Part shown: in pieces, positions 1 to 63,088 of the stretch
Layout: each line of letters begins with the position of its first letter
Position numbering within the stretch: position 1 is the first letter of the stretch
Source of the DNA: Eublepharis macularius
Lineage: Eukaryota > Chordata > Lepidosauria > Squamata > Eublepharidae
DNA length: 64,000 nt
Assembly: GCF_028583425.1 (NCBI RefSeq)
Contig: NC_072791.1
Span: 191,928,311 to 191,992,310, forward strand
Direction: 5' to 3'
The notes under the pieces: model-generated
Told to the model about the DNA's origin: nothing
Databases searched by the model: none
What the model saw: the letters and a program-made list of their open reading frames with translations, nothing else
Program-made: the position numbers and the translations under genes

Positions 1-358
1 TCTCACACCCGTTCTCGTTCCCTCTAGCGAGGCACAAGACAATCCCAATTTGGTGGGCCACTTAGTGGCCTCAAAAAGATGCTGATTTTTAAACCACCAA
101 CGGTCACCTTTATTGCCAAAGGGTGAGAAGAGAGAGACTTGTGTGGATATGTGGATCATTCAATTTAAATTACACCAAACATAAGAGAACCTCCACCCAA
201 CATTTCAGAATGCAAAAAAATCCTAAATTCAATTTACAAAAATAACCCTTTCAGGGTGTTTAAGAACTAGACATCGCTGAGTGATGATGATTATTTGATG
301 CACAGTTTGCCTGATAGCACTATGACTTTTTTTTTCCTTTCTTTTTTCTTTCTCCCAG
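1..358 (+). other. Upstream intron (or flank) of the Harbinger-type nuclease gene
   Basis: No exon is recognised here. The stretch ends in a strong pyrimidine tract (about 328-356) followed by CAG at 356-358, a good splice acceptor for the nuclease exon. It is therefore read as intron, with the N-terminal exon or exons lying left of the window. A short near-palindrome (GGCCACTTAGTGGCC) lies at about 57-71. Nothing else is evident. Confidence 0.6.
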
Positions 359-1069
359 ATAATGGACGGTTTCCGTAGATTGGGTTTCCCGCACTGTGTG
401 GGAGCTATTGATGGAACGCATATCCCGATCTGCGCTCCTGGAGGCCGCCCAGATCAGTACGGCAACCACAAGAACTATTCCTCGATTCTGCTCCAAGGCA
501 CAGTTGATCACCGCGGAAGATTTGTGGACGCCGAGGTGGGGTGGAGTGGGAAGAACCACGATGCCTTCGTGTTCGCCCACTCCGCCTTCTGTGTTGCCAT
601 GGATAGTGGCTCACTAATTCCGGGAAACCCTTTCATGGTGGTGGACGGTGTAAGAATACCCCCGGTGGTCATTGCCGATGGAGCCTACCCCATGCGTAGG
701 TGGCTTATGAAGCCCTACGGGAGAACGGCAACCACACAAGCTCAGAAAATGTTTGACACCCGCCTATCGCGAGCCAGGAACGTGGTGGAATGTTGTTTTG
801 GAAGACTGAAGGCCAGGTGGAGGTGTCTGTCACACCGCCTCCAAGTTAGGGAGCACAACGTCATCGCTGTGGTGACAGCATGTGTTGTTTTGCACAACCT
901 CTGTGAAAGCCGGGGACATCCCATCACTGGCCGCGGAGCAGCCCCAGAGACAATACTTGTTTCACATGGAGAGGGACAAGAGTTGACCACCCATCACAGG
1001 CATCTTGCCGAAGGAAAGGTGGTTAGGGATGCCCTGGCCAAGTATATGGGCCTAGATTCTACAAGTTGA
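359..1069 (+). CDS. PIF/Harbinger-type DDE nuclease (HARBI1-like), C-terminal exon
   Basis: This exon encodes the catalytic half of a PIF/Harbinger DDE endonuclease, the enzyme that cuts transposon ends in this superfamily. Numbering from the internal Met at 362, the first Asp is D17 in AIDGTH, the second D106 in IADGAYP, and the Glu E143 in RNVVECCFGRLK. The D-E spacing of 36 residues fits the family. A GKNHDAFVF block (about residues 63-71) and a VLHNLC block (about 176-181) are also typical. The exon follows a pyrimidine tract and CAG at 358 and can be read in phase 0 from 359. It is open for 236 codons to TGA at 1067-1069, with no internal stop. Family nucleases usually run about 350-400 aa, so the N-terminal helix-turn-helix part should lie in exon(s) outside the window. 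Whether the gene is a transposon gene or a domesticated one cannot be told from this end alone. Confidence 0.9.
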   Translation: MMDGFRRLGFPHCVGAIDGTHIPICAPGGRPDQYGNHKNYSSILLQGTVDHRGRFVDAEVGWSGKNHDAFVFAHSAFCVAMDSGSLIPGNPFMVVDGVRIPPVVIADGAYPMRRWLMKPYGRTATTQAQKMFDTRLSRARNVVECCFGRLKARWRCLSHRLQVREHNVIAVVTACVVLHNLCESRGHPITGRGAAPETILVSHGEGQELTTHHRHLAEGKVVRDALAKYMGLDSTS

Positions 1070-1178
1070 TGTTGCCTCCCTCGGTGCGGCAAGTGATGGA
1101 CATCGGCTAACCTGCTTCGAAAAGCTGCTAAACCAAGGGGAACATAAATGGTCTCAACCAGCAACTCTAATCTGTGTA

Positions 1179-1184
1179 AATAAA
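1179..1184 (+). terminator. Poly(A) signal AATAAA of the nuclease gene
   Basis: A canonical AATAAA lies 110 bases after the nuclease stop codon, in a run of A. Distance and strand fit cleavage and polyadenylation of the nuclease transcript. Confidence 0.6.
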
Positions 1185-1750
1185 AAAAAAATTTGGTTAA
1201 CTGAACTCAAAAGACTATTGATTATTGAGGTGCTGTCAGACAAGCGGTGGATGTGAAATCAAGTCCTGGCACATGCAGACAATACATTCCCACACAGCTG
1301 AGTGGTCCCCCGCATACATCGTTCACAGTTTGTCAGGGTATTTTTGGCCAAGTCTGGAATCCGCCCCCCCCCCAAATTTCCAATTTGGACTGCAAGTGCT
1401 CCTCCCAAAGATACAACTTAGCCGCATGTTGCAATCAGGGGGGGGGGGGAAGCGCCACTTGATTGGTAACTGCTGCGTTTCACTTTTTGCAGGAAGGCTG
1501 TTTAGAATGGTCACTACATGAGTGATGCCACTTACACAAAGAAACACAAATGTGATTCTTACTGTGATTTCATTGTATTGTCTGATGTTAAATATTCCTA
1601 AACTTTGGGGATTGCGTTGAAAAAAAAAAGGGAGTCAACATTGGAAACGATTGGCCATCATCTTATACCCTGATGATTCCATTTGATCCCAGAAAGTTAA
1701 GAATTTTAAAACAGACATACATGACTGGGGCGACAACTCCTTAACACACA
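1185..1750. other. Spacer between two convergent 3' ends
   Basis: This is noncoding sequence between the nuclease 3' end and the gene A 3' end. It holds a C run (about 1363-1371), a G run (about 1438-1448) and an A run (about 1620-1630). I see no exon or repeat family that I recognise. Confidence 0.5.
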
Positions 1751-1756
1751 TTTATT
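1751..1756 (-). terminator. Poly(A) signal AATAAA of MSANT gene A (reverse strand)
   Basis: TTTATT on + reads AATAAA on -. It lies 122 bases past the gene A stop codon at 1878, as expected for its 3' UTR. Confidence 0.6.
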
Positions 1757-1877
1757 TCAAATACAATAGATAAAGACCATTAAGGGGTCACCAGTGCAAT
1801 GGAATCTGTCAAATGAATTTTGCTGCCAAAAACCATGGTATGTGGCAAATAAGGAGGGCAACGCAGAACATAGCTCC

Positions 1878-4800
1878 TCAAAGCGTCAGCCTCTCCCTGG
1901 CTTTGCCAACACAGGAACGCCTCGCTGCTGCCTTCTTCGGGGTTGCCTGTGAGGCAGGTAGGGCGGTTTGCCCATAATCGTGTGTTGGGGGGATGATTTG
2001 ACGCTGTTGGGCGAGCATCTGTCCCAATGACTTCAAAGTGTTCACAGCATCAGACATCACCGAAATGTTCTGTTTCCAGGCCTCGGCAAACTTCTCACTC
2101 TCCATTTTAGTGTGATCCAAGAATTCCCTCTGAATCTTGTTCTCATCAGCCTTCCAACTGCACAGCATCTCTCTGTCCGTTCGCCATTGGGAAACCTGGG
2201 CATTGTGCTCCTCTCGAGAACGGCGCATCATATCATCGGCTACTCCATAGAGTGCTGCGTTTCTGCGTCTCCTGTTTCTTAGTTGGAATAGTCTTGTTCC
2301 CGGTGAAACTTCTGCTCGGCATCTGTTATCTGCCCCGTCTGCTGTGGATGTAAGTCAGAGCAACAGATCAATAAATTGTTAACATCTCAGTCATTATTCA
2401 GAAATCTAAGCCTGAAGAAAAGGATGCAACATGTTTTTTGGTTGGCCAGCAGCAGGCTTCATAGTTTGGGCACTTCCCCATGACTTCCAAAACCCACATA
2501 ACAGATTTTGGCCTAGTTCATCCCGTCGCCCCCGCCGAGGCCAATGTGTTGCACATTTTTTGATAACCATGCATGCACAAGCATCAAGGTTTTTCCATAA
2601 CGGGAAGGCTTTTACAATGCCACTTGCCATATGGGTTGTGCAGAAATAACATGGAGGACATACTGGCAGCAGTCAAAGCTATTATGTTTAAAACTGCGTT
2701 AGTGAGAGAGACCAATTTATCTGCTTTAGATAGCGAGGAGACGTGCTGTGTCCGGATCTGCCTTTTACACCAATGCTGACCAACGTTGCTCTTGCAATGT
2801 TCCACAGTGAGCACATTCTGACCATTTTCAATGTTATGCCAAATCAAGAATTTCCTTGAAATCCTGACAACATCAGAACATATGTGGTGGGAGCAACCAT
2901 TAAAGAGGATAGGTGATCCAAGACGGTGTCTGGGTGTCCCTCAGAATTAATTTTTGGAACCGTGATTCATGTCAGTGCAGATCACATCAACAGTGTTGGC
3001 ATTATCAATTGAGGGGTGCAAGGTGCGGTTCAATGTGCGCTGCAGATCTGAGAAACCAGCCAACAAATGCGATAAAAATTACATTGACAAAAATCTCACA
3101 TGATAAATGGGAAATTTCAGCTACCAGTGGGAGAACACTACACTGTTCTGGGAAAATCCAATGCAGACTGTAAGGTAGCCGTAGTTTGTCCCAAAATTTT
3201 TTTTTTCTAACCTATGCACCCTGCGTGGCCGATGAATTGCAACACACATGAAAATTTCATACGTTCCATTTGGTTCAGAATGGGGACTATGCATGCTGTT
3301 CACAGTGAAACAGGTGACAGATTTTATTGCACCAGGTGGGGTCTGGGTGAGCTCGGTGACACCTGGCGTGGGCTTCTGGGAACAAAATTTTTGTTTTTTT
3401 AATTCATCTTGCAGGTAGGTCTGTGTCCATAGGAGGGTCACACGCCAAGGGGATATTATGGTCTTGCTGTTGGGCTTACAGAAACTAACAGGGCAACTGC
3501 CTTGGAGGCCAACAGTCGCACACAAAGAATGGAGATTTTGGACATGTGACATAAAAGGAACGATTGTGAGGCACCCTCCGGCCTCCCAAGATGACTCTGC
3601 TCTCTCCTCCACTTCTCTCCCCCCCTCTATATTTGACCATGCTCTGTTTCATATGTCAGACAAAGATAACGTGATTCAGGAGAGCTTATGCCACTCTGCA
3701 ATTGTCTCTTCTCATAGGTGCAACTGGACTCTTTTAGATTCTGCAGATCAACTAAGCTTACCCGTGTTATAGCGTGAACGATGCCCCAGGGGAAGGTCTG
3801 AATCACTGTCGTCGTCCTCCATTGCGTTTGCACCTGTAGTGTCGTTTTCTGAAAATTTATAGGTTTTAAATGTGATTGGTTTGAAAAACACGGGGATGTG
3901 ATATAGATAAATACAATTCAAACATTCACTTCGCAGGCACTGTCTTCTGCGTTGTCCTCTTTTCTTATTTGTATCTGTGCCACTATCAATATATAAGAGA
4001 TGATAGGAGCTGTAATGGGACGTCTGGTTTTTTTTTGCACCACTATAATGACTAAGAGGTGGCCCTGAAAACCTGAAACAGATTTTGAATGTGCCCTCTG
4101 TCATCTACCCCTTATTCAGCCTTTTAGTGGACCGGAATGTCTCACACAGAAAATTGCACCAGTCCATGCACCCGTCCACGGTCTCATATTCCTGTGTTCA
4201 TCTGTCCCTGAAGCTGGGCACTGGGTTTATATGCTTCGAGTGTAGAGATTGGAGTTCAAGTCAGGCATCCATTAATGAAAAGGAGACTGATCAAAAATAT
4301 ATTTGAATCCAGAGCCAACTCCATCCATGCATTTTGGTAAATATAGAACGGATAAACCGTGGTGTTGCTTGCATGGATGGGCTGGGCAGGAGTGAACAGT
4401 TGACCATTTGAAACCATAAGTCTAAGACAACCACCACGGTGTGGCCGATGATGTCACATCATCCCCATAACTGACAGACCTCCAAACCATCCCATCACTG
4501 ACAGACTTTCCCATATCTTGCAAACCTGAGGTCGTGCCCTTCTTTTCCCCTAAAACAGGCACTCTCATCTTGGCGTTCCCACTCTCGAGATGTCTTCAGC
4601 CTTTCCAGGGACTGTTTTTGGGTGGGCCACCATTGGAGCAACCTGTCAAAAAAATGCTCACCCTTGTCAGCAAGTCCATCTATGGTGCGGTCAAGATCCT
4701 CTTCACTGGCATCGGTGGATGATGACGAGTTCTGCGCTATAAACGTGAAATCAATAAAGGTGTTACGATTTCATAGACAGGGAAATGTGAAAAGGAAGAA

Positions 4801-5331
4801 AAATCATAGCTCTGAACTAGAATAATCAACGCTCCATCACTCACGTGCTGCCATGGGATTTGGAGAAGAGCACCACAGCGGTGCAGCATCTATCGTCTGC
4901 ATGTCGTGCGAGAAGAGTTCCTCCGATCCCTCCATCACTTCCCTGGGGGCGCTTATCTGCGGGGGTCCTTGGGCAAAAGAAATGCTTCGCGCTATCCGTT
5001 TAGGTTTAACACTTGCGTCCCCTCTTAGAATACTGTCCAGCTCACGAAAAAAAGGACATGTAATGGGGCCGTTTCCAGAAGTGGAATTGTGTGCCATGAC
5101 GCGCTTGTACTCCAACCGCATACTTTTTGTTTTGTTCCTGCATTCCAATGCAGTGCGCCGATGACCACGCGAGGACATCATTTTGGAAATTTTTTCAAAG
5201 TTGTCTAAGTTCCTGTGGGAGCTTCTAAGGGCTTCCTGTATCTTGTCCTCCCCCCAGAAAGAAAGGAGGTCCAATACCTCTTTTTCCCTCCATGTCGCTG
5301 ATCGTGGAGCCACAGGAGCAGTGGCCGACAT
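1878..5331 (-). CDS. Myb/SANT-like (trihelix) DNA-binding protein A, four exons, 370 aa
   Basis: This is a predicted sequence-specific DNA-binding protein of the Myb/SANT-like (MSANT, Myb_DNA-bind_4) type. In Harbinger transposons such a protein is the nuclease's DNA-binding and nuclear-import partner. Exons on the reverse strand are 5331-4845, 4736-4662, 3848-3762 and 2341-1878 (487, 75, 87 and 464 bp; 1113 in total). Donors are GTGAGT, GTGAGC and GTAAGC, acceptors end in AG, and every intron is phase 1. The start is the ATG at 5331-5329, in the context AAAATGTCGG; an in-frame TTG lies just before it. Residues about 12-105 form the MSANT domain, with W14 and W26 as core aromatics, the RGHRRTALECRNKTK block, and a CPFFRELDSIL end. 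A basic KPKR follows. Exons 2 and 3 give an acidic Ser/Asp-rich linker. Exon 4 (from residue 217) gives a charged coiled coil at about 254-335 and a basic C terminus. The terminal acceptor is a tandem NAGNAG (2341 or 2338). Stop-free reading across all joins argues for an intact gene. Confidence 0.85.
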
Positions 5332-5930
5332 TTTCAAAAAACAATTGTTTATGATGGTGTCCGCAGATCAGAGTGTCGGTCGCTCTTCTCTCCCCACGTC
5401 TGCAAGAAAGCAAATGGAGGGCAGTCCACTGCACTGTGATCCGTCGACCAAGCACTGTTCTCCCGCCGGAAATCCAAGCCGTTAATTGCGCATGCGCTGT
5501 AGCCACCACCCGTTCCTTTGCCTAATTAATTTTAATGTGACAAAATAACGCTATGACGAATTTTCGTGGATGCATTGGCACGCCAGGAAGATGTTTCGTT
5601 AAAAGGACTGTAATGCGATGTGAAAAGTGAACCAATTTGTTGATAAGAAATCAACCCCTGTTCTTGTTAACAATGCTTTCTCATGCTTCACTGGAACTCA
5701 AGTAGCAGAAATAAAAATTATTGGCCTGAAAGGGCCTTCCCATGAGTGTGGGAGAACATAGTGTTCATTCAACAGCATTTGGCGCCGAAATCAAATCCTC
5801 AACACCGATTGGTCATCCTGTTCAAGCGCGTCCAATCAGCAGCCTTTTTTTCCGCGCCTTTATGGAGCCGTTATGAGGGCATGCTTATTTATGTAACAGC
5901 ACATTTTCGGTATTTCGTTTAGGAACAAGT
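5332..5930. promoter_or_regulatory. Shared divergent promoter of MSANT genes A and B
   Basis: The 599 bp between the two start codons is the only room for both promoters. Visible motifs are an ETS-like CCGGAA (5466-5471), a perfect NRF1-type GCGCATGCGC palindrome (5488-5497), an E2F-like TTTGGCGCC (5778-5786), an inverted CCAAT box ATTGG (5808-5812), a CCAAT box (5832-5836), and a second E2F-like TTTCCGCGCC (5849-5858). The first two lie nearer gene A and the others nearer gene B. The motif calls are by consensus only. A possible 5' UTR splice acceptor (TTTCGTTTAG at about 5913-5922) precedes the gene B ATG. Confidence 0.6.
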
Positions 5931-7599
5931 ATGGCAGCAGCGGCAAAAGGAGTCTTCTGGCGGGATGAAGAGGTGGAGACCCTGCTGGACCTCGTTGCAC
6001 GCTCCGGAAAAGCGGCGCGTGTAATGAGGAGCACACATCTGCCCACGAAGCTTATATTTCACAAGCTGTCGAGGCAGATGTGTGCCCGTGGTCACAGCAG
6101 GACCCCCGAACAGTGCAGATCGAAGTTCAAGAGGGTGAAGGGGGACTTCTACGGGGCGCTGGAAGCCTGGCAGGGGATCCCTCGCCAGAGTGGAAAGCCC
6201 CCGTACTTTGCGTCCATGATGAACCTCTGGGATCTCGCCGGAAGGCCAAGCTGGCAATCCCGTCATCATGCTGGTAAGAACCTCTTAAAAGCATTTAATT
6301 TTAAATTAACAACGCTGTTAAGTGCACGTCAATGTGGAGAAACTAGGCAAAAAGTTAGATGGTGGGGGGAGAGCTGAGATTCCATTCCCACCCCCCGTAA
6401 TCGTCGCACAACGCCGTTTTATTGCAATAGCGGTTTTTTTTTCTCCTACAAAGAAACCTTTTTTTTTTCTGCTCGGCGTGAGGGACCCCAAGTTTGGGAA
6501 TGTGGCATGTGTCGAGCCGCTGTGTTCATCACGGTGCACAGTTGCTGGTGTTATCTTTGTTGCACCTTTTTGTCATGAATGTTCCGATTGCAATGGTTTG
6601 ATGGAGTGTGCCAACATTTCTTCTTCACTTTGCAGCCCTTCTCCGTGGTAGAGCTCCCACCGCTGCCGTGGGGGAGGCAAGAGCAGACGAGGAGCAGGAG
6701 GCGCTTGAGGTGGCTGGGGAGCAAGCTTCCTCTGAGGACCCTGCACAGGGATCACAACAGGCACCCCCTGGTAAGCATGTATTTGCCTAATATATTCTTC
6801 CCCACCTAAAATCAGGCAGACCAGCAACTGATGCTTTCCCACACCGTGCACTTGACCATCAACCTTCATAGAATGTGTCCATGGATGAGTGGGACCACAT
6901 TCGCTTCCACACTTCCATGGATGGAGGGGAAGTTGTATATGACAGTGGTGCCCCAAGCACGGAGCATCACCACCCACCAGGCTTTTCCACGATTTCAAAA
7001 GTGTGCTGTGAAAAAAAATAATTGCCAGCCTTTTTTTATCTCCTTTGTAACAGCAAGAAAAAAAAATTAATGCTTTCCGATGTTTTATTTGCTGGTGCTA
7101 TAACAGAGTTCCCATTTTTCTGTAATCATTGAAATGAAATCAGAGAATCTGGAGGTTGATGCCACAGTGGATCAGCCAGGATGTTATGACTGCTGTGGCC
7201 AAACCGTTTTACAAGATTTTGATTTCTTCCTTTCATTTCTGAAGCTAGTGCACAGGAAAGCCAACTGGAACGGTCGGAGGAGGGTCCCTCAACCAGCAGA
7301 AGGTCTGCTCCCCCAGGAAGAGCCCAACGCAGAGGGATAGGAGATCTGTTCACGGCCATGGAGAGGATGGAGGAGAGGCTAGGATCATCCAGTAAGTTTT
7401 TGCTCTGAATGGTGCTGTCACCCTTTTTTTGGGTGCCGTCTCTCAAAGACACTTTTCTTTCCCAAATTCAGTCTCAAATGTGCAAGAGAGGTTGAGCAGC
7501 GTGGAGGACCGACTAGCACGCCTGGGGCGGCGAGTCAATGTGATGGAGCGCCGTGAGAGAAGGAGACATCGTCCCTCTGCCTCTGGGGATGCACCCTGA
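5931..7599 (+). CDS. Myb/SANT-like (trihelix) DNA-binding protein B, four exons, 250 aa
   Basis: This is a second predicted MSANT DNA-binding protein. Exons are 5931-6273, 6636-6770, 7245-7391 and 7472-7599 (343, 135, 147 and 128 bp; 753 in total). Donors are GTAAGA, GTAAGC and GTAAGT, and acceptors are TTTGCAG, TCTGAAG and ATTCAG. All three introns are phase 1 and the frame is open to TGA at 7597-7599. The ATG at 5931 is the first in the frame and starts MAAAAKGVFW. Residues about 8-102 are the MSANT domain, with W10, the RGHSRTPEQCRSKFKRVK block, F73 and W100. The block matches protein A in the pattern RGHxRTxxxCRxKxK, so the two are related but far diverged. Exon 2 is an acidic, Glu/Ala-rich linker. 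Exons 3-4 end in a heptad-like coiled coil (about 193-235) and an Arg-rich tail. It probably dimerises. Function beyond DNA binding is inferred. Confidence 0.85.
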
Positions 7600-7724
7600 T
7601 TGTTCTCACCACTGTATATAGTTACCCAAGTTTTCTTCCCCTTCCCCCACAGTTTATTGTTGTGCTGTTCATTTAAAAAAAAAAATTTTTTTTGTGGTTC
7701 TCTTTTGCTTAATTTTTTCCTTAA

Positions 7725-7730
7725 ATTAAA
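7725..7730 (+). terminator. Possible variant poly(A) signal ATTAAA of MSANT gene B
   Basis: No AATAAA is seen close behind the gene B stop. ATTAAA, the common variant, lies 126 bases after it in an AT-rich stretch. Confidence 0.35.
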
Positions 7731-9780
7731 AAAATATTTTCCATGATGTCACAGTGATATTTTCTCTGTACGTGGTCCATGTCTATGCATCAAAAAGATA
7801 GGTGTAATGGCTTTCTGGACTGTCCACTAGATTTCCCAAATAACAATCAATGCCCACCCCCTGTTGGTGCAATGTCCCACATCATCATAGGTTTTCTCTG
7901 CACCCCCTTTTTTCTAATTTCCCGCATCCCCGGCAAACACGTGAAGTGTTTGTATTTATTGTGACCTCGAACTTCATTAGCCTTACCTGCCAAAGTTTAG
8001 TCTCATGTGTCACATTCTGATTGCCACAGTTGACTTGACACAATTGTAGGTTTTTTGGGACATGGTATATAAGTGGCAAATGGTGGATTACACTGTTCCA
8101 CAAGCACCTCACAAGCATCCCCCCTGTCATCATGTCACCAGACTCAGTTTTCCAGACGAGGGAAGCACTGACAATTTAAGGAGCATCACCCCAATGGCAT
8201 AATTGGGCTCTAAATTGCTGATGTTGAGAAATAATGTGATATGACCTGTACTTTAAATGGCCCAAGAAACTGGTTGTTCCACCACATCACATGGAGACAT
8301 CAAGCTGAAATTTGTTGGCACAGCGTAATACAAAAATACCAATTCTGATTCGTCTGGAATGTGCCGCTCCTGGTGTTACCCGTTCTTCCCTCTCAAAAGC
8401 ACAGTCCATTAATGTGGGAGATGAAATCAATGGGTGAAACTGGCATTGAATGCATGATTTTCTGAATGGAGTGCTGAATCAATCAGTCCCCAGTGTTTTA
8501 GATTGGGTGTGATGGAAATGAACCACACGTGACGCCAAGTAACAGAATTTACAGGCGGGCCCCTATCTGTGCTGGATATCCAGATGTGTTTTTTCTTTTA
8601 CTGGCGTGGAACAAAAGGAGCTGTTTAAAAGTGGAGGATGCCGAACGACACTTTGAATATTATGTCCAGAATGATTCTGCTGATATCCTAGGTTTCCCAT
8701 TCATCACTCCAATCGGGGGGCCAAACGTCGTAGTCTCCAGCCTGGTTGGCACACAGGTTTGAGATGGGTTCCAAACACGAAGAACCACAAAGAACCCACA
8801 GAACGCCACATCACAACTTTAAATTTAGCATTCTGTCTGTATTCACTGTATCTTCAGAATGCTTTCTCCATTGTGTCCCCAGGCATAACACCAAATTTTA
8901 CAGCAAAACAGGAATGGAAATACAGATAAGATTTCAAGGGAATGTATTTTAAGTTCATGGATGTCAATGTGGAACTAAAAAATTGGGTCACCAGAAATAA
9001 GAAGCGTTTCTTTAAGAGCAACAGAAAGGTGTTCGATTTTCAAAATGTTTTCTGCATGTTTTTGGACAGCATTTCCCCCGTTAATCCAAGATTGACAAAC
9101 TTTCTTTATCTACTAATATTTTTGCCAGGAACACAATTGATTCCTATTCTGTCTCTGCGGCACGTAAATCTTCCCTCGATTCTCTGATCCTTTTTTTTTC
9201 TAATTTTTTTTTTTAATGAATCTTTGGAATAGCGATATTTTGTTATGTGGGAATAAAAAAAGTATTGCGCCCAGAAAAGGCACCCTAGCCAAGTGTCCCC
9301 GTGGTGCTCAACCTTCGGTCGTGACAGGCGCCAGCCACGAGACGCACCCTGACCAAACGATTTAATAACATTCCAACAAAATAATTCCGGGTTGGACTTC
9401 CAAAGCTTTTTATTTTGATCAATCGTCACTGCGTCACGATGACTTAAGTTTTAAAAAAGGCAAAAAAATTAAAAGAGACATTTCTCAAGGAACAAGAAAC
9501 ACAGCTGATTTTAAAAACTTGTTTGTGGTATCATTCTAGAGCACTGTATACATGGGCCGAGGCAGGAGGCGTTAGGACGGCAGTTAAATGTGATCTTTGT
9601 TGCGCTGGAACACACTATGAAATTTCGCTATGACAGATCAATTTAAAAAAAAAAATTAAAAGAGGAGGGGGGGGAAGAGGATATTCGGGTGGTTGGGCCA
9701 CTAAAAAGATGTTAATGAGAAAAAAGTTTGGCTTTTGAGAAATCGAATGTTGCTGAACCAAGCAACGAAAGCAAATAAAG
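7731..9780. other. Noncoding stretch downstream of MSANT gene B
   Basis: No exon with domain content or known repeat is recognised. The longest reading frames here (for example on - at 9106-9429) lack domain content and splice support. The right boundary of the nuclease/MSANT cassette, if it is a transposon, may lie in or just beyond this stretch, but no terminal inverted repeat can be defined because the left end is outside the window. Confidence 0.5.
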
Positions 9781-10000
9781 GGGAAATATAGGAGAAATCG
9801 CTCATGAGCCATCTCTGGTGGAATCGGCCAATGGGAACGCAAGGAAAGGAAGGGGAGACTTGATTGACGGCTGTTTAAAAAAGGAGCGCGAAAATTGCGC
9901 TCGCAAGCGTTCACGTCCATCGTGAAACTCCCGCAAGAAAACCGCTACTAGTAATTCGATGGAAATCCGAGAGAGATGCGTGTAGAGGATTGGGTAATGT
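9781..10000 (-). promoter_or_regulatory. CpG-containing promoter-like patch with CCAAT and E2F-like motifs
   Basis: In otherwise AT-rich DNA this patch has several CpGs, a CCAAT box (9828-9832), ATTGACGG (9863-9870), and an E2F-like GCGCGAAAA (9886-9894, reading TTTTCGCGC on -). The mix resembles the right half of the gene A/B promoter. No transcript start or coding exon could be attached to it on either strand, so it is a weak call. Confidence 0.3.
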
Positions 10001-11527
10001 GACCGGCACTCTGAAATGCGGATTTCATATGGAGAACAACCGGGAAAAAAGAGGTAATGTGGATTCAACCATTCTTGAAATCAAATATCGTGATTGAAAT
10101 CATATAAAAATACTATCAGTACTATCAGTAACTAACATTATATATTCATGAATATTTTGCAAAATGAATACTGAAAGAATATCTTGAGTATATTTTTCAT
10201 CAAAATTCACGGAGGAGACTGTTCTGGAAGCCAATTCACCTCTAATTCAGAAGCAAATTCTAGATTATTTGGAGAGGGGATCCAGCCTCTCCTTTAAAAA
10301 AATACAGAAATGCTTTTATCTAGGTCTCTTTTATCTTAATGTGGGTGGATGAATGCCTGACATAATGGGGATCCCTCCACCTTGAATAAATGCCTAATTT
10401 TAACTGTCAACAATGCTGAATCTGAGGCTTTTAATTTTTTTTAAAAAATAAGAGTTTACTTTCCTAAGGTTAGATGCGTCCTCAAAAAAGACAGCAGCAT
10501 TTTACAAAATAGTTCATTTAAGGAGCAGTTACATGACCTTTTCCCTTAACTCTAAGCTAGCAGTGAAGCTGGCTGAGGCAACCAGCCCTAATGAGGGAGA
10601 GAAAGAGAAAACACCGGCTCCTCTACTGTCCTCCATCTAATTATAAACATCATTGTCAACTGACTCCAAGATCAGATGAATCCTAATTGACCTCCAACAT
10701 TATACACTGAAAAGATAGTCAGAACTGCCAAACTAAATGTAAGAAAGATAAATAAACTGTAATTAGCAACTTAACTCCTAGTTCCCCAACGTGGTTTTTC
10801 GAGTACTGTTCATAATGGCAACATCTCGTTCGAAAGTTAATTTTTCTGGTAGATCTTTTAAATTAGTCCTTCTGACTCTATAAAGTGAGCAGTCGATGTC
10901 ACGTCTTCATTTAAGTCATAAAATAAGGATTAATGACAGGCAAATTGTTCCACAAGGAGTGTTCTCAAGGATTTATTTTGGGAATATAACCTTAGATTTC
11001 CATAGGCTTTTTAAGGATCATTTGTACCTGCACAGTTTTAAGTACATTCTTGACAGGGGGTCTTTAAAATGCTGTGTCCATAAATTGGATAGTTGTGCTG
11101 TCAGACCCTATTCACATTTATTCAAAAGCATGTCTCAGACAATGCTGGTTTTCACCTTTTTAGAGACCTGAGAATCTCTAGATAGTCTATAATCCATGCC
11201 AGAGTTTTAGAGGAGAACATATGTATTCCACTAAGGTTTTACAGAACAACATGTTTACTCCACCAAAATTGTTCAAAGGAGCAATATGGAACCAGTCATT
11301 CCTAGACTGTTTCCAAAAATGAGAAACCCTCTGACTTACAGAATGATAGTAAAATGTTGCTCTGTGTTGCCTCCTCCCCCATAATATTTATGCAGAATTA
11401 TGTGCATATTGAATTTCCCTGCCTCCTACTCCCCATCAGTGGCTGCTACTGGTGGTGAGGAGAAAAGATAGATGGGGAATCTGAAAGAGTTTTCAGTTGG
11501 CAGTCTCAAGTTCAGCATCACATCTAG
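10001..11527. other. AT-rich unique intergenic sequence
   Basis: No gene, RNA or repeat family is recognised. The change from the CpG-containing patch at 9.8 kb to plain AT-rich DNA happens at about 10.0-10.1 kb. Confidence 0.5.
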
Positions 11528-16209: not shown

Positions 16210-17018
16210 TAGACATGGGCACGAACAGAAAAAAAAATGAACATGGTGTTCGATGTTCATTGCCATCCACGAACATTGATGAACATGACCTGTTCACGAA
16301 CATGTTCGTTGTTAATGGGGGCCAGCAGGCTCTCCTCCAGCCATCAAGATCCCTATCACACCACTCCCAGAAACCATACCTGAGCAGGCAGCAGGAAATG
16401 TACCAATAATAAATAATAGCTTGGCCCAGAGAATGGCAGCAGCCCTGGAACCTGAAGGGGTAGATCCCTAGTACACCACTCCCAGAAACCTTACCTGAGC
16501 AGGCAGCAGGAAAGATACCAGTAATAAATAAGAGCTTGGCCCAGAGCCTGGCAGCAGCCCTGGAACTTGAAGAGGTAGATCCCTATCCCACCACACACAA
16601 AGAAAATTCAAGCTCCCAAAGCACTCTCTCTGTCTCTCTCTCAAAATGCCAATAGCAACTGTCTCTCCCTCACTGTCTGCAAAACCAGAGCTGGGAGCCC
16701 TCTTCCCCCCCTGCTCTTTGCTTCCTTGTAACAAATTTGGAGCACCACACTTGAAAGGAAGACCTGCCTATCAAGCTAAATTGGGCTTAGATTGGGGTTT
16801 CCAGGGCAACAGCAGGAGTTCAGACAGAGTTCAGGCAATCCCTGCCTCGTTGCCAACAGAATTGATTGCAGGTGCCAGACTGTCTGGCTTGACAAACGAG
16901 GCTTGCAACGACCACCTGTTTGTTTAGAATGGGGCATCACGAACAGCTTGTTCACGAACAGCTGATTGGGCTGTTCGTGGCTTTTTTTAGTTTGTATTGC
17001 TGTTCGTGCCCATCTCTA
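16210..17018 (+). mobile_element. Non-autonomous hAT transposon, 809 bp, with perfect 8-bp target duplication
   Basis: The terminal inverted repeats are TAGACATGGGCACGAACAG on the left and the inverse of TAGAGATGGGCACGAACAG on the right (ending at 17018). The flanks carry identical GCCATGAC copies, the 8-bp duplication that hAT transposases make. Inside, GTTCACGAACA-type subterminal motifs are repeated near both ends. No transposase frame is present, so it must move in trans. The middle holds a tandem duplication of about 115 bp. A shorter, right-truncated relative is at 28890. Confidence 0.85.
16349..16592 (+). repeat. Tandem duplication, period 115 bp, inside the hAT element
   Basis: The block from ATCCCTATCACACCACTCCC recurs 115 bases later (CCACTCCCAG at 16361 and 16476), and a third start (CCAC at 16591) follows. 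The two full units differ by a few substitutions. The relative at 28890 lacks the block. Confidence 0.8.
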
Positions 17019-18752: not shown

Positions 18753-19012
18753 CAGGGCTTTTTTTCTGGGAAAAGAGGTGGTGGAACTCAGTGGGTTGCC
18801 CTCAGAGAAAATGGTCACATGGCTGGTGGCCCCGCCCCCTGATCTCCAGACAGAGGGGAGTTTAGATGGCCCTCTGCGCCGTTCAGCGGCGCAGAGGTCA
18901 ATCTAAACTCCCCTCTTTCTGGAGATCAGGGGGCGGGGCCACCAGCCATGTGACCATTTTCAAGAGGTTCCAGAACTCCGTTCCCCCGCGTTCCCCCTGA
19001 AAAAAAGCCCTG
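18753..19012 (+). mobile_element. Palindromic hAT-type MITE, copy 1 (260 bp)
   Basis: The element runs from CAGGGCTTTTTTTCTGGG to GAAAAAAAGCCCTG. The interior is one long hairpin: the segment from GTCACATGGCTGGTGGCCCC to GGAGTTTAGAT recurs inverted, around a GCGCCGTTCAGCGGCGC centre near 18880. The flanks are CCTCTTGT (18745-18752) and CCTCTTAT (19013-19020), an 8-bp duplication with one mismatch, as hAT elements make. It has no coding capacity. Confidence 0.8.
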
Positions 19013-47823: not shown

Positions 47824-48078
47824 CAGGGCTTTTTTTCAGCTGGAACGTGGTGGAACAGAGTTCCGGAACCTCTTAAAAATGGTCACATGGCTGGTGGCCC
47901 CGCCCCCTGATCTCCAGACAGAGGGGAGTTTAGATTGCCTTCCGCGCCACAGCACAGAGGGCAATCTAAACTCCCCTCTGTCTGGAGGTCAGGGGGCGGG
48001 GCCACCAGCCATGTGACCATTTTCTCCGAGGGCAACGCACTGAGTTCCACCACCTCTTTTCCCAGAAAAAAAGCCCTG
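47824..48078 (-). mobile_element. Palindromic hAT-type MITE, copy 2 (255 bp), inverted
   Basis: It has the same hairpin family as 18753-19012 but in the opposite orientation. The ends are CAGGGCTTTTTTTCAGC and CAGAAAAAAAGCCCTG. The flanks carry a perfect 8-bp duplication, GTTATATT at 47816-47823 and 48079-48086, the hAT signature. Confidence 0.85.
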
Positions 48079-58143: not shown

Positions 58144-58453
58144 GCAGGGCTGCCAACTCTGGCTTGGGAAATTCCTACCGATTTTGGGTGGAGTTTGGGG
58201 AGCAAGCCTGGAAGGCATGTGGTGCCACTGATTCTGCTCTCTGAGGGCCAAGCTACACATGACGAATGACACTTGAACAGCAAGTGTATTTCTCCCTGTT
58301 CACTTGCCTCCACTCAATCCACTTGCCGTTCAAGTGTCATTCGTCATGTGTAGCTTGGCCCTGAGACTGCCATTTTCTCCAGGGGAACTGATCTCTGTAG
58401 TCTGGAAGTCTGTTGTAATTCTGGGTGGACTCCACCTGGAGACTGGCAACAGT
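58144..58453 (+). repeat. GCTGCCAACTC-type repeat, copy 2, split by a MITE
   Basis: The left part is GGGCTGCCAACTCTGGCTTG to GCTCTCTGA. The right part is TGAGACTGCCATTTTCTCC to CACCTGGAGACTGGCAAC. The two rejoin to the family consensus when the 117-bp MITE and one TGA are removed. Confidence 0.65.
58245..58361 (+). mobile_element. Harbinger-type MITE, copy 1 (117 bp), TSD TGA
   Basis: Terminal inverted repeats of about 35 bp start GGGCCAAGCTACACATGACG and continue AATGACACTTGAAC, with near-perfect inversion. The flanks are TGA at 58242-58244 and 58362-58364. A 3-bp TNA duplication is the mark of PIF/Harbinger insertion. There is no coding capacity. It is nested in an older repeat. Confidence 0.75.
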
Positions 58454-60980: not shown

Positions 60981-61244
60981 GGTTTTGTCTGGATCTAGTT
61001 ACACCTGAATCTAGTTACACCTGGATCAAAGCAAAAGGCTGGCCGAATTCTGGGCTTTCCTCTGACAGAGATAAGGAATTGGCTGTTGGAAATGTGTACG
61101 TGTTAAGAAAGTTTAGCAGAAGAGCTGGAGGCAGAGGAAACTTCCTGTTGCTCTTCTCAAATGCTATCTGGGAGATAAAAACAGTGCGCTTATATGCTGC
61201 TCTTCTAGATAGATTAATGCCTCGCTCAGGGCTGAAGGAAGTCA

Positions 61245-61362
61245 GGGCCAAGCTACACATGACGAATGACACTTGAACGGCAAGTGGATTGAGTGGAGGG
61301 CAAGTGAACAGGGAGAAATACACTTGCCGTTCAAGTGTCATTCGTCATGTGTAGCTTGGCCC
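61245..61362 (-). mobile_element. Harbinger-type MITE, copy 2 (118 bp), TSD TCA
   Basis: It has the same GGGCCAAGCTACACATGACG ends as 58245-58361, with the core in inverse orientation and few differences between the copies. The flanks are TCA at 61242-61244 and 61363-61365, again a TNA triplet. The high similarity of the two copies suggests fairly recent movement. Confidence 0.75.
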
Positions 61363-61525
61363 TCAGTGTTGTTATTATCCCCACAATTCAGCTGGAGAGC
61401 TGGGCTAGGAGGAGTGGCTGACCCTAGGTCCCCTGCAGAGCTCATGGCAGTAGAGAGAGTCGAACCAGCCAATTGCTGATTCACAGACCAACCACTTAAC
61501 CACTGTGCTACAGCAGCTTACCTTA
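61363..61525 (-). repeat. tRNA-derived SINE fragment, reverse
   Basis: On - it reads GTAGCACAGTGGTTAAGTGG...GCAATTGGCTGGTTCGACTC, the head of a tRNA-SINE with A and B boxes. It is partial, and the MITE at 61245 sits at its distal edge. Confidence 0.6.
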
Positions 61526-62886: not shown

Positions 62887-63088
62887 AAGCCAAGCTACAA
62901 GTGACGCCTGACACATGTTGGACACTTGTCAGCTTCCCTCAAGTTTTGATGGGAAATGTAGGCATCCTACTCTTGCAGCTGTAATGGAGAGCCAAGCTGT
63001 AAAACCAGGACGCCTACATTTCCCATCAAAACATGAGGGAAGCTGACAAGTGTCCAACTTGTGTCAGGCGTTACCTGTAGCTTGGCTC
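62887..63088 (+). mobile_element. Palindromic MITE with AGCCAAGCTAC ends, Harbinger-like
   Basis: The ends AGCCAAGCTACAAGTGACGC and the inverse (GCGTTACCTGTAGCTTGGCT) resemble the 58245/61245 family. Long inner arms (ACACTTGTCAGCTTCCCTCA, then TTTTGATGGGAAATGTAGGC) return inverted. The target duplication is unclear (TGA on the left, ACA on the right). Confidence 0.6.

Follow-up and report, generated by a model that had tools for sequence, protein, structure and literature searches.

A recently multiplied Harbinger-type transposon of Eublepharis macularius carrying a nuclease gene and two distinct Myb/SANT genes

The 64,000-nucleotide stretch of the Eublepharis macularius genome analysed here (NC_072791.1, positions 191,928,311 to 191,992,310 of the forward strand; hereafter the window, numbered from its first letter) begins inside a Harbinger-type transposon that encodes a DDE nuclease and two Myb/SANT proteins, designated helpers A and B. 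The transposon is 11,944 bp long (window −1873 to 10070), and its left 1,874 bp lie outside the window, in the stretch immediately to the left (L009:6127-8000), to which negative window positions refer. Its parts are as follows.

1..10070, no strand: in-window part of the element (end-to-end alignment with seven copies; ends read; CpG change point at 10,091)
−1511..−876 (L009:6489-7124): nuclease exon 1 (predicted exon join)
359..1069, plus strand: nuclease exon 2, DDE domain and stop codon (DDE_Tnp_4, E = 2e-33; triad intact; predicted exon join)
4845..5331, minus strand: helper A exon 1, Myb/SANT (trihelix) domain (Myb_DNA-bind_4, E = 1.1e-17; predicted join)
4662..4736, minus strand: helper A exon 2 (predicted splice join, open frame)
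3762..3848, minus strand: helper A exon 3 (predicted splice join, open frame)
1878..2341, minus strand: helper A exon 4, C-terminal region and stop codon (predicted join; present in five diverged copies at 39–92% amino acid identity)
5332..5930, no strand: head-to-head gap between A and B, 599 bp (CpG observed/expected 0.94)
5931..6273, plus strand: helper B exon 1, second Myb/SANT domain (Myb_DNA-bind_4, E = 2.5e-11; substitution ratios 0.043 and 0.078, see below)
6636..6770, plus strand: helper B exon 2 (predicted splice join, open frame)
7245..7391, plus strand: helper B exon 3 (predicted splice join, open frame)
7472..7599, plus strand: helper B exon 4, heptad pattern (possible coiled coil), basic tail and stop codon (predicted join)
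9896..10070, no strand: right end, with the tip of the terminal repeat, one TCACA site 68 bp in, and CG steps

The two nuclease exons join into a predicted protein of 448 amino acids, and two alternative splice donors also leave the frame open (423 or 432 amino acids); the exon joins of all three genes are predictions from splice signals, made without RNA. The nuclease retains an intact D, D, E triad, whose second D and E are separated by 36 residues. Comparison of the nuclease with the PDB sequences returned nothing meaningful (best E = 0.48), and none of the viral contigs searched held a relative of it. Helper A, intact on the minus strand (5331–1878), consists of four exons joining into a 370-amino acid frame, which is also kept open when the joins are displaced by a few bases, and helper B, intact on the plus strand (5931–7599), consists of four exons joining into a 250-amino acid frame. 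The similarity of A and B is confined to the Myb/SANT domain (36% identity over 73 amino acids), with no significant BLASTP similarity outside it, and the two are therefore distinct genes. The domain matches and open frames thus agree with the preliminary description of this DNA, which had noticed a DDE nuclease exon and two separate, intact Myb/SANT genes. Among the PDB sequences, the plant GT-1 trihelix domain is a weak relative of helper A (E = 0.0006), and its match to helper B is not significant (0.14). Single-sequence AlphaFold models of the two Myb/SANT exons were poor (mean predicted local distance difference test scores, 48.3 and 40.8) and were left unused. The C-terminal heptad pattern of B occurs in the focal copy and in two of the six diverged copies scanned. 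The gap between the heads of A and B is a probable shared promoter region of the two genes.

The source genome (G000, 2.24 Gb) was searched with the exons and the end sequences of the element. The nuclease search gave 150 scored matches among 1,525 candidates, with identities of 66–100%; in this and the other genome searches, copy counts are lower bounds. Seven further copies, chosen as those whose nuclease exon was listed as 100% identical to the focal one, align with the focal element from end to end at 99.0–99.6% identity over window −1873 to 10070. The left tip of the element reads GGCTGAATCCACATT... and the right tip GGTTGAATCCACATT..., and the terminal inverted repeats flank all three genes in copies at different genomic sites. 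The real unit is thus larger than the extent of 359–7599 given in the preliminary description. The same description had proposed looking further left for the nuclease N terminus and a terminal inverted repeat with a 3-bp duplication, and elsewhere in the genome for other copies; exon 1 and the repeat are present, the duplication of the focal copy is imperfect, and in the seven copies the second Myb/SANT gene lies within the termini, not outside them. The right boundary is also visible in the base composition, the CpG observed/expected ratio being ~0.2–1.1 from position 1 to ~10.25 kb, 0.0–0.4 directly beyond (500-bp windows), and 0.12–0.40 beyond 12 kb (4-kb blocks); a two-segment fit over the first 20 kb places the change point at 10,091 (10,005–11,073 within 3 log units). 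Inverted-repeat and frequent-word searches within the window failed to locate the ends of the element because the left end lies outside it. At one site (G000:C7:125752989-125778052), two oppositely oriented copies meet tail to tail, with ~1.2 kb between their right ends. The length of the element is 8.8–11.9 kb across the three families measured. It is a young, mobile, multi-copy, three-gene Harbinger-type element that has multiplied recently as a unit, and this anatomy is close to certain.

Both ends could be placed in 15 insertions, namely the focal copy, the seven near-identical copies, and seven from diverged families; a further copy, d93, with 86.4% identity over its length, was excluded because of its diverged left tip. 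A perfect 3-bp target duplication is present in 14 of the 15. The duplicated triplet is CTG in six insertions, and CTA, AGG, TTA, CCT, ATG, CAT, TTG, and CCA in one each. For the family with a 57%-identical nuclease, no clear duplication was readable in the two copies considered.

To follow the three genes through the copies, exon 1 of B (150 scored matches of 1,407 candidates) and exon 1 of A (150 of 1,309) were also searched for, and the match lists of the nuclease, A, and B were joined by position within 16 kb. Both helpers are found in 89 of the 96 scored copies with a nuclease identity of at least 76%, as expected from the three-gene element proposed in the preliminary description. They accompany all 37 scored copies at ≥95% identity, 10 of 12 at 85–94%, and 42 of 47 at 76–84%, in each class in the order nuclease>, <A, B>. 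For copies at 66–71%, the matches listed for A and B end before the partners of such copies can appear; among the matches listed, nucleases at 70–71% have A only in 12 of 13 cases and neither helper in one, B not being reached, and those at 66–69% have both helpers in nine of 41 cases, A only in four, B only in nine, and neither in 19. Four copies read directly (nuclease identity, 71%, 69%, 66%, and 57%) contain both A and B, although exon 1 of A is cut by the end of the stretch read in the 69% copy and has one stop in its aligned part in the 66% copy; the family with the 57%-identical nuclease thus carries both helpers as well. In these copies at 57–71% (L028+L029, L030, L031, and L044+L045), the gene order is nuclease>, B>, <A, with orientations unchanged, whereas A stands between the nuclease and B in the focal clade; B was therefore kept although its place changed. 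Viewed from the ends, 40 of 97 candidate places for the 61-bp left end were scored: 39 have all three genes downstream, and the remaining one has A and B, the nuclease not being among the matches listed. For the 79-nucleotide right end, 40 of 54 candidates were scored. The end searches pass over very frequent genomic words, and could miss many short derivatives. The same three genes recurring in the same order at many genomic sites is more than chance, and several related families demonstrably keep all three.

Between d93 and the focal copy, the nuclease exon has a ratio of nonsynonymous to synonymous substitution rates (dN/dS) of 0.15, two parts of A have ratios of 0.20 and 0.13, and exon 1 of B has one of 0.043; between the 71% and the 66% copy, the corresponding values are 0.11 (nuclease), 0.15 and 0.20 (parts of A), and 0.078 (exon 1 of B). 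As judged from these ratios, A and exon 1 of B are shown to evolve under purifying selection, which on exon 1 of B is estimated to be at least as strong as on the nuclease in the two comparisons possible. If B were useless to the element, its retention in this form would be unexpected.

A more distant Harbinger family, also multi-copy in this genome (L042, L043), has a nuclease that is 47% identical over 191 amino acids and is encoded by a single long frame of 502 or 781 codons, the 781-codon frame running antisense over the helper gene. One Myb/SANT gene was found within the 8 kb read in each of two copies, and the one-helper statement for this 502-amino acid family covers that length in those two copies, short of the ends. 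Its product is 38% identical to the focal A (E = 3e-24) and 30% identical to the focal B (7e-7), and scores 3e-22 with the A-profile and 2e-9 with the B-profile. Because the single helper of the distant family is of type A, A seems to correspond to the classical helper and B to have been added.

For eight families, the terminal 400 bp on each side were compared; in five of these families, the known gene positions are limited to exon 2 of the nuclease and exon 1 of A and of B. Two patterns are conserved, namely CACA sites whose positions are fixed and CG steps that form a ladder with a spacing of 11 bp. The left end has TCACA at 127 in all eight families, and a second TCACA at 83 in seven of them and at 85 in the remaining one; at the right end, the motif is found at 68 in six families and at 67 in one. 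Its orientation is strongly biased, with 23 forward and no reversed occurrences in bases 20–150, against one forward and seven reversed in bases 150–400. The family with the 57%-identical nuclease, whose tip is different, has TCACA at 81 and 137 on the left and at 64 on the right. The CACA core of the inner sites recurs in the tip, GAATCCACAYT. As for the ladder, CG occupies columns 26, 37, 48, 63, 103, 112, and 114 on the left, and columns 3, 28, 50, 137, and 161 on the right, in at least four of six families. Pairs of CG 11 bp apart number 40 in bases 20–175 of the ends of these six families and five in bases 175–400, the next commonest spacings in bases 20–175 being 2 bp (20 times) and 22 bp (19 times). 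A shift test of the CG columns, which ignores relatedness, gave 0 of 2,000 on the left and 1 of 2,000 on the right, and a comparison of dinucleotides served as a better control. In this comparison, CG ranks first among the 16 dinucleotides in column conservation at the left end, ahead of CA; at the right end, it comes second, after TT, and its conservation is weaker than at the left end.

Based on these observations, we consider it reasonably probable (roughly 0.6) that the element is an autonomous 11.94-kb PIF/Harbinger-type (PHIS) transposon encoding a nuclease, a classical helper A, and a distinct second helper B that would act together in the following way. Helper A would recruit the nuclease to the ends and into the nucleus, by analogy with other Harbingers. 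At the same two ends, conserved sites of a second class would be bound by helper B, which, possibly dimerized by its C-terminal heptads, would complete the complex. Either helper may be the one that binds the CACA sites, the other then binding the CG ladder; any assignment is a guess. The complex would be able to distinguish the two ends by the fixed layout, in which the left end has two inner sites and the right end one. The action proposed for B is inferred. One helper per terminus, a possibility raised in the preliminary description, is disfavored and was dropped as the leading idea, both conserved patterns occurring at both ends. It is possible, though doubtful, that the machine is obligatory, each Myb/SANT protein reading its own class of sites at both ends and the CG ladder conferring sensitivity to methylation; if true, the need for both helpers would explain their retention through changes of gene order and a nuclease divergence of >40%.

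Several observations weigh against the main explanation. The right TCACA is absent from one of the eight families; only 0.19 of the CG occurrences on the right lie in columns common to at least four of six families, compared with 0.54 on the left and with 0.32 for TT on the right; and the column conservation partly reflects the kinship of the families. The heptad pattern of B was not found in four of the six diverged copies scanned. The selection estimate for B covers exon 1, with the synonymous rate saturated for most pairs of copies, and seven of the 96 copies at ≥76% identity stand without one or both helpers among the matches listed. The duplication of the focal copy itself is imperfect (CTT versus ATT). 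Also, the N-terminal region of the nuclease could itself bind one of the two patterns.

Among the rival explanations, the one that survives best, although we regard it as rather unlikely, holds that B is a part of the element without being a transposition helper, and regulates the genes of the element or its silencing, for example through a shared promoter or methylation-dependent reading of CpG. The head-to-head start of A and B over a CpG-rich gap of 599 bp fits this proposal, as do the CG-based nature of the second end pattern and the single, type A helper in the 8 kb read of the distant family. However, the CG ladder occupies the outermost ~150 bp of the ends, next to the tip and the CACA sites, and A and B are not head to head in the clades with the order nuclease>, B>, <A, so that a shared promoter cannot be the general role. 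Distinctly less probable is a heterodimer of A and B on one class of sites, with B a diverged copy of A. The Myb/SANT domain common to both proteins (the 36% match), the C-terminal heptads of B in the focal copy, and the CACA core common to the tip and the inner sites are in line with it; two separate patterns are nevertheless conserved at the ends, A and B have no significant similarity by BLASTP outside the domain, and the heptads were not found in most of the diverged copies scanned. From the window alone, with the left end outside, it could be imagined that B is a mere neighbor, belonging to a second element (adjacent or nested) or being a host gene next to a transposon, but this is refuted by the end-to-end alignment of copies at different sites, in which a single pair of terminal repeats encloses the three genes, and by the 39 of 40 scored left ends with all three. 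A domesticated three-gene host locus, the other alternative raised in the preliminary description, would agree with the three intact frames in the window's copy, but is rejected for this locus in view of the many near-identical copies with terminal repeats and target duplications, no search having been aimed at a separate single-copy derivative elsewhere.

The transposon with two helpers can be placed among known systems, the papers cited being represented by excerpts to which the statements about them are limited. A Harbinger-type DDE nuclease with an intact triad and element-encoded Myb/SANT proteins (Myb_DNA-bind_4 in A and in B) place it in PIF/Harbinger, and the terminal inverted repeats with a 3-bp duplication (14 of 15 insertions, imperfect in the focal copy) are those of PHIS elements. 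Like other PIF/Harbinger elements such as zebrafish Harbinger3_DR, whose Myb-like protein recognizes a 9-bp subterminal motif (PMC9710019), it combines a DDE_Tnp_4 nuclease, a Myb/SANT helper, terminal inverted repeats, a 3-bp duplication, and subterminal motifs; unlike them, it has two distinct Myb/SANT genes, a length of 8.8–11.9 kb, and duplications mostly not of the form TWA, the mark of PIF/Harbinger in the narrow sense, which is seen in one of 15 insertions (TTA). Most autonomous PIF/Harbinger, NuwaI, and NuwaII candidates have two open reading frames (PMC4482050), where the present element has three genes, and two proteins per Harbinger are also given in PMC9179366 and PMC8437027; the three-protein elements in PMC3627910 are Mariners. 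NuwaI is described with CWG duplications, tips that are usually GGG, and an average length of ~4,462 bp, from 16 animal genomes with no reptile among them (PMC4482050). The present element resembles it in the nuclease with a Myb/SANT protein; its duplications are varied, with CTG the commonest (six of 15). It differs in its three genes, the 11.9 kb of the focal copy, and tips that start with GGC or GGT in the eight families. Harbinger-Snek of sea kraits, with two proteins and short non-autonomous derivatives (PMC8437027), is likewise a recent Harbinger expansion in a reptile, with two proteins there and three here. The HARBI1 nuclease needs the Myb-like partner NAIF1 for nuclear localization (PMC9710019), a pairing similar to that of the present nuclease with a Myb-like partner; HARBI1 and NAIF1 are, however, domesticated host genes, whereas the present nuclease belongs to a mobile, multi-copy element and has two partners. 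The open-access literature yielded no Harbinger with two Myb/SANT genes; subscription papers and Repbase were outside the search, and such an element may be described there.

PIF/Harbinger transposons have been described as a nuclease with one helper, and a lineage that keeps a second helper under selection would make this picture incomplete, all the more as the second helper is retained through families whose nucleases differ by >40%. The young copies, with three open frames, defined ends, and two candidate classes of sites, offer a testable system. Three proteins could also be co-opted at once by hosts, which bears on the joint co-option of Harbinger proteins.

Elsewhere in the window, Rfam and tRNA scans of which were empty, several palindromic repeats of a seemingly squamate kind were observed. 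Two of ~260 bp at 18753–19012 and 47824–48078, 91.5% alike when inverted and starting with AGGGCTTTTTTTC, are presumably hAT-type miniature elements. Another pair of ~125 bp at 58241–58364 and 61242–61366, 98.4% alike when inverted and with the ends GGGCCAAGCTACACATGACG, is probably a recent miniature element, and a repeat of ~200 bp at 62888–63087 has a tip similar to that of this pair (CCAAGCTACAAGTGACG). Between the palindromic repeats and positions 1–10500, a few scattered 12-base words are in common, none of them at the right end of the transposon. The segment 59501–61500 is CpG-rich (observed/expected up to 0.79 in 1-kb windows) amid a CpG-poor host region, and is probably a host promoter. 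A tandem repeat with a 115-bp unit in 2.2 copies occupies 16347–16594.

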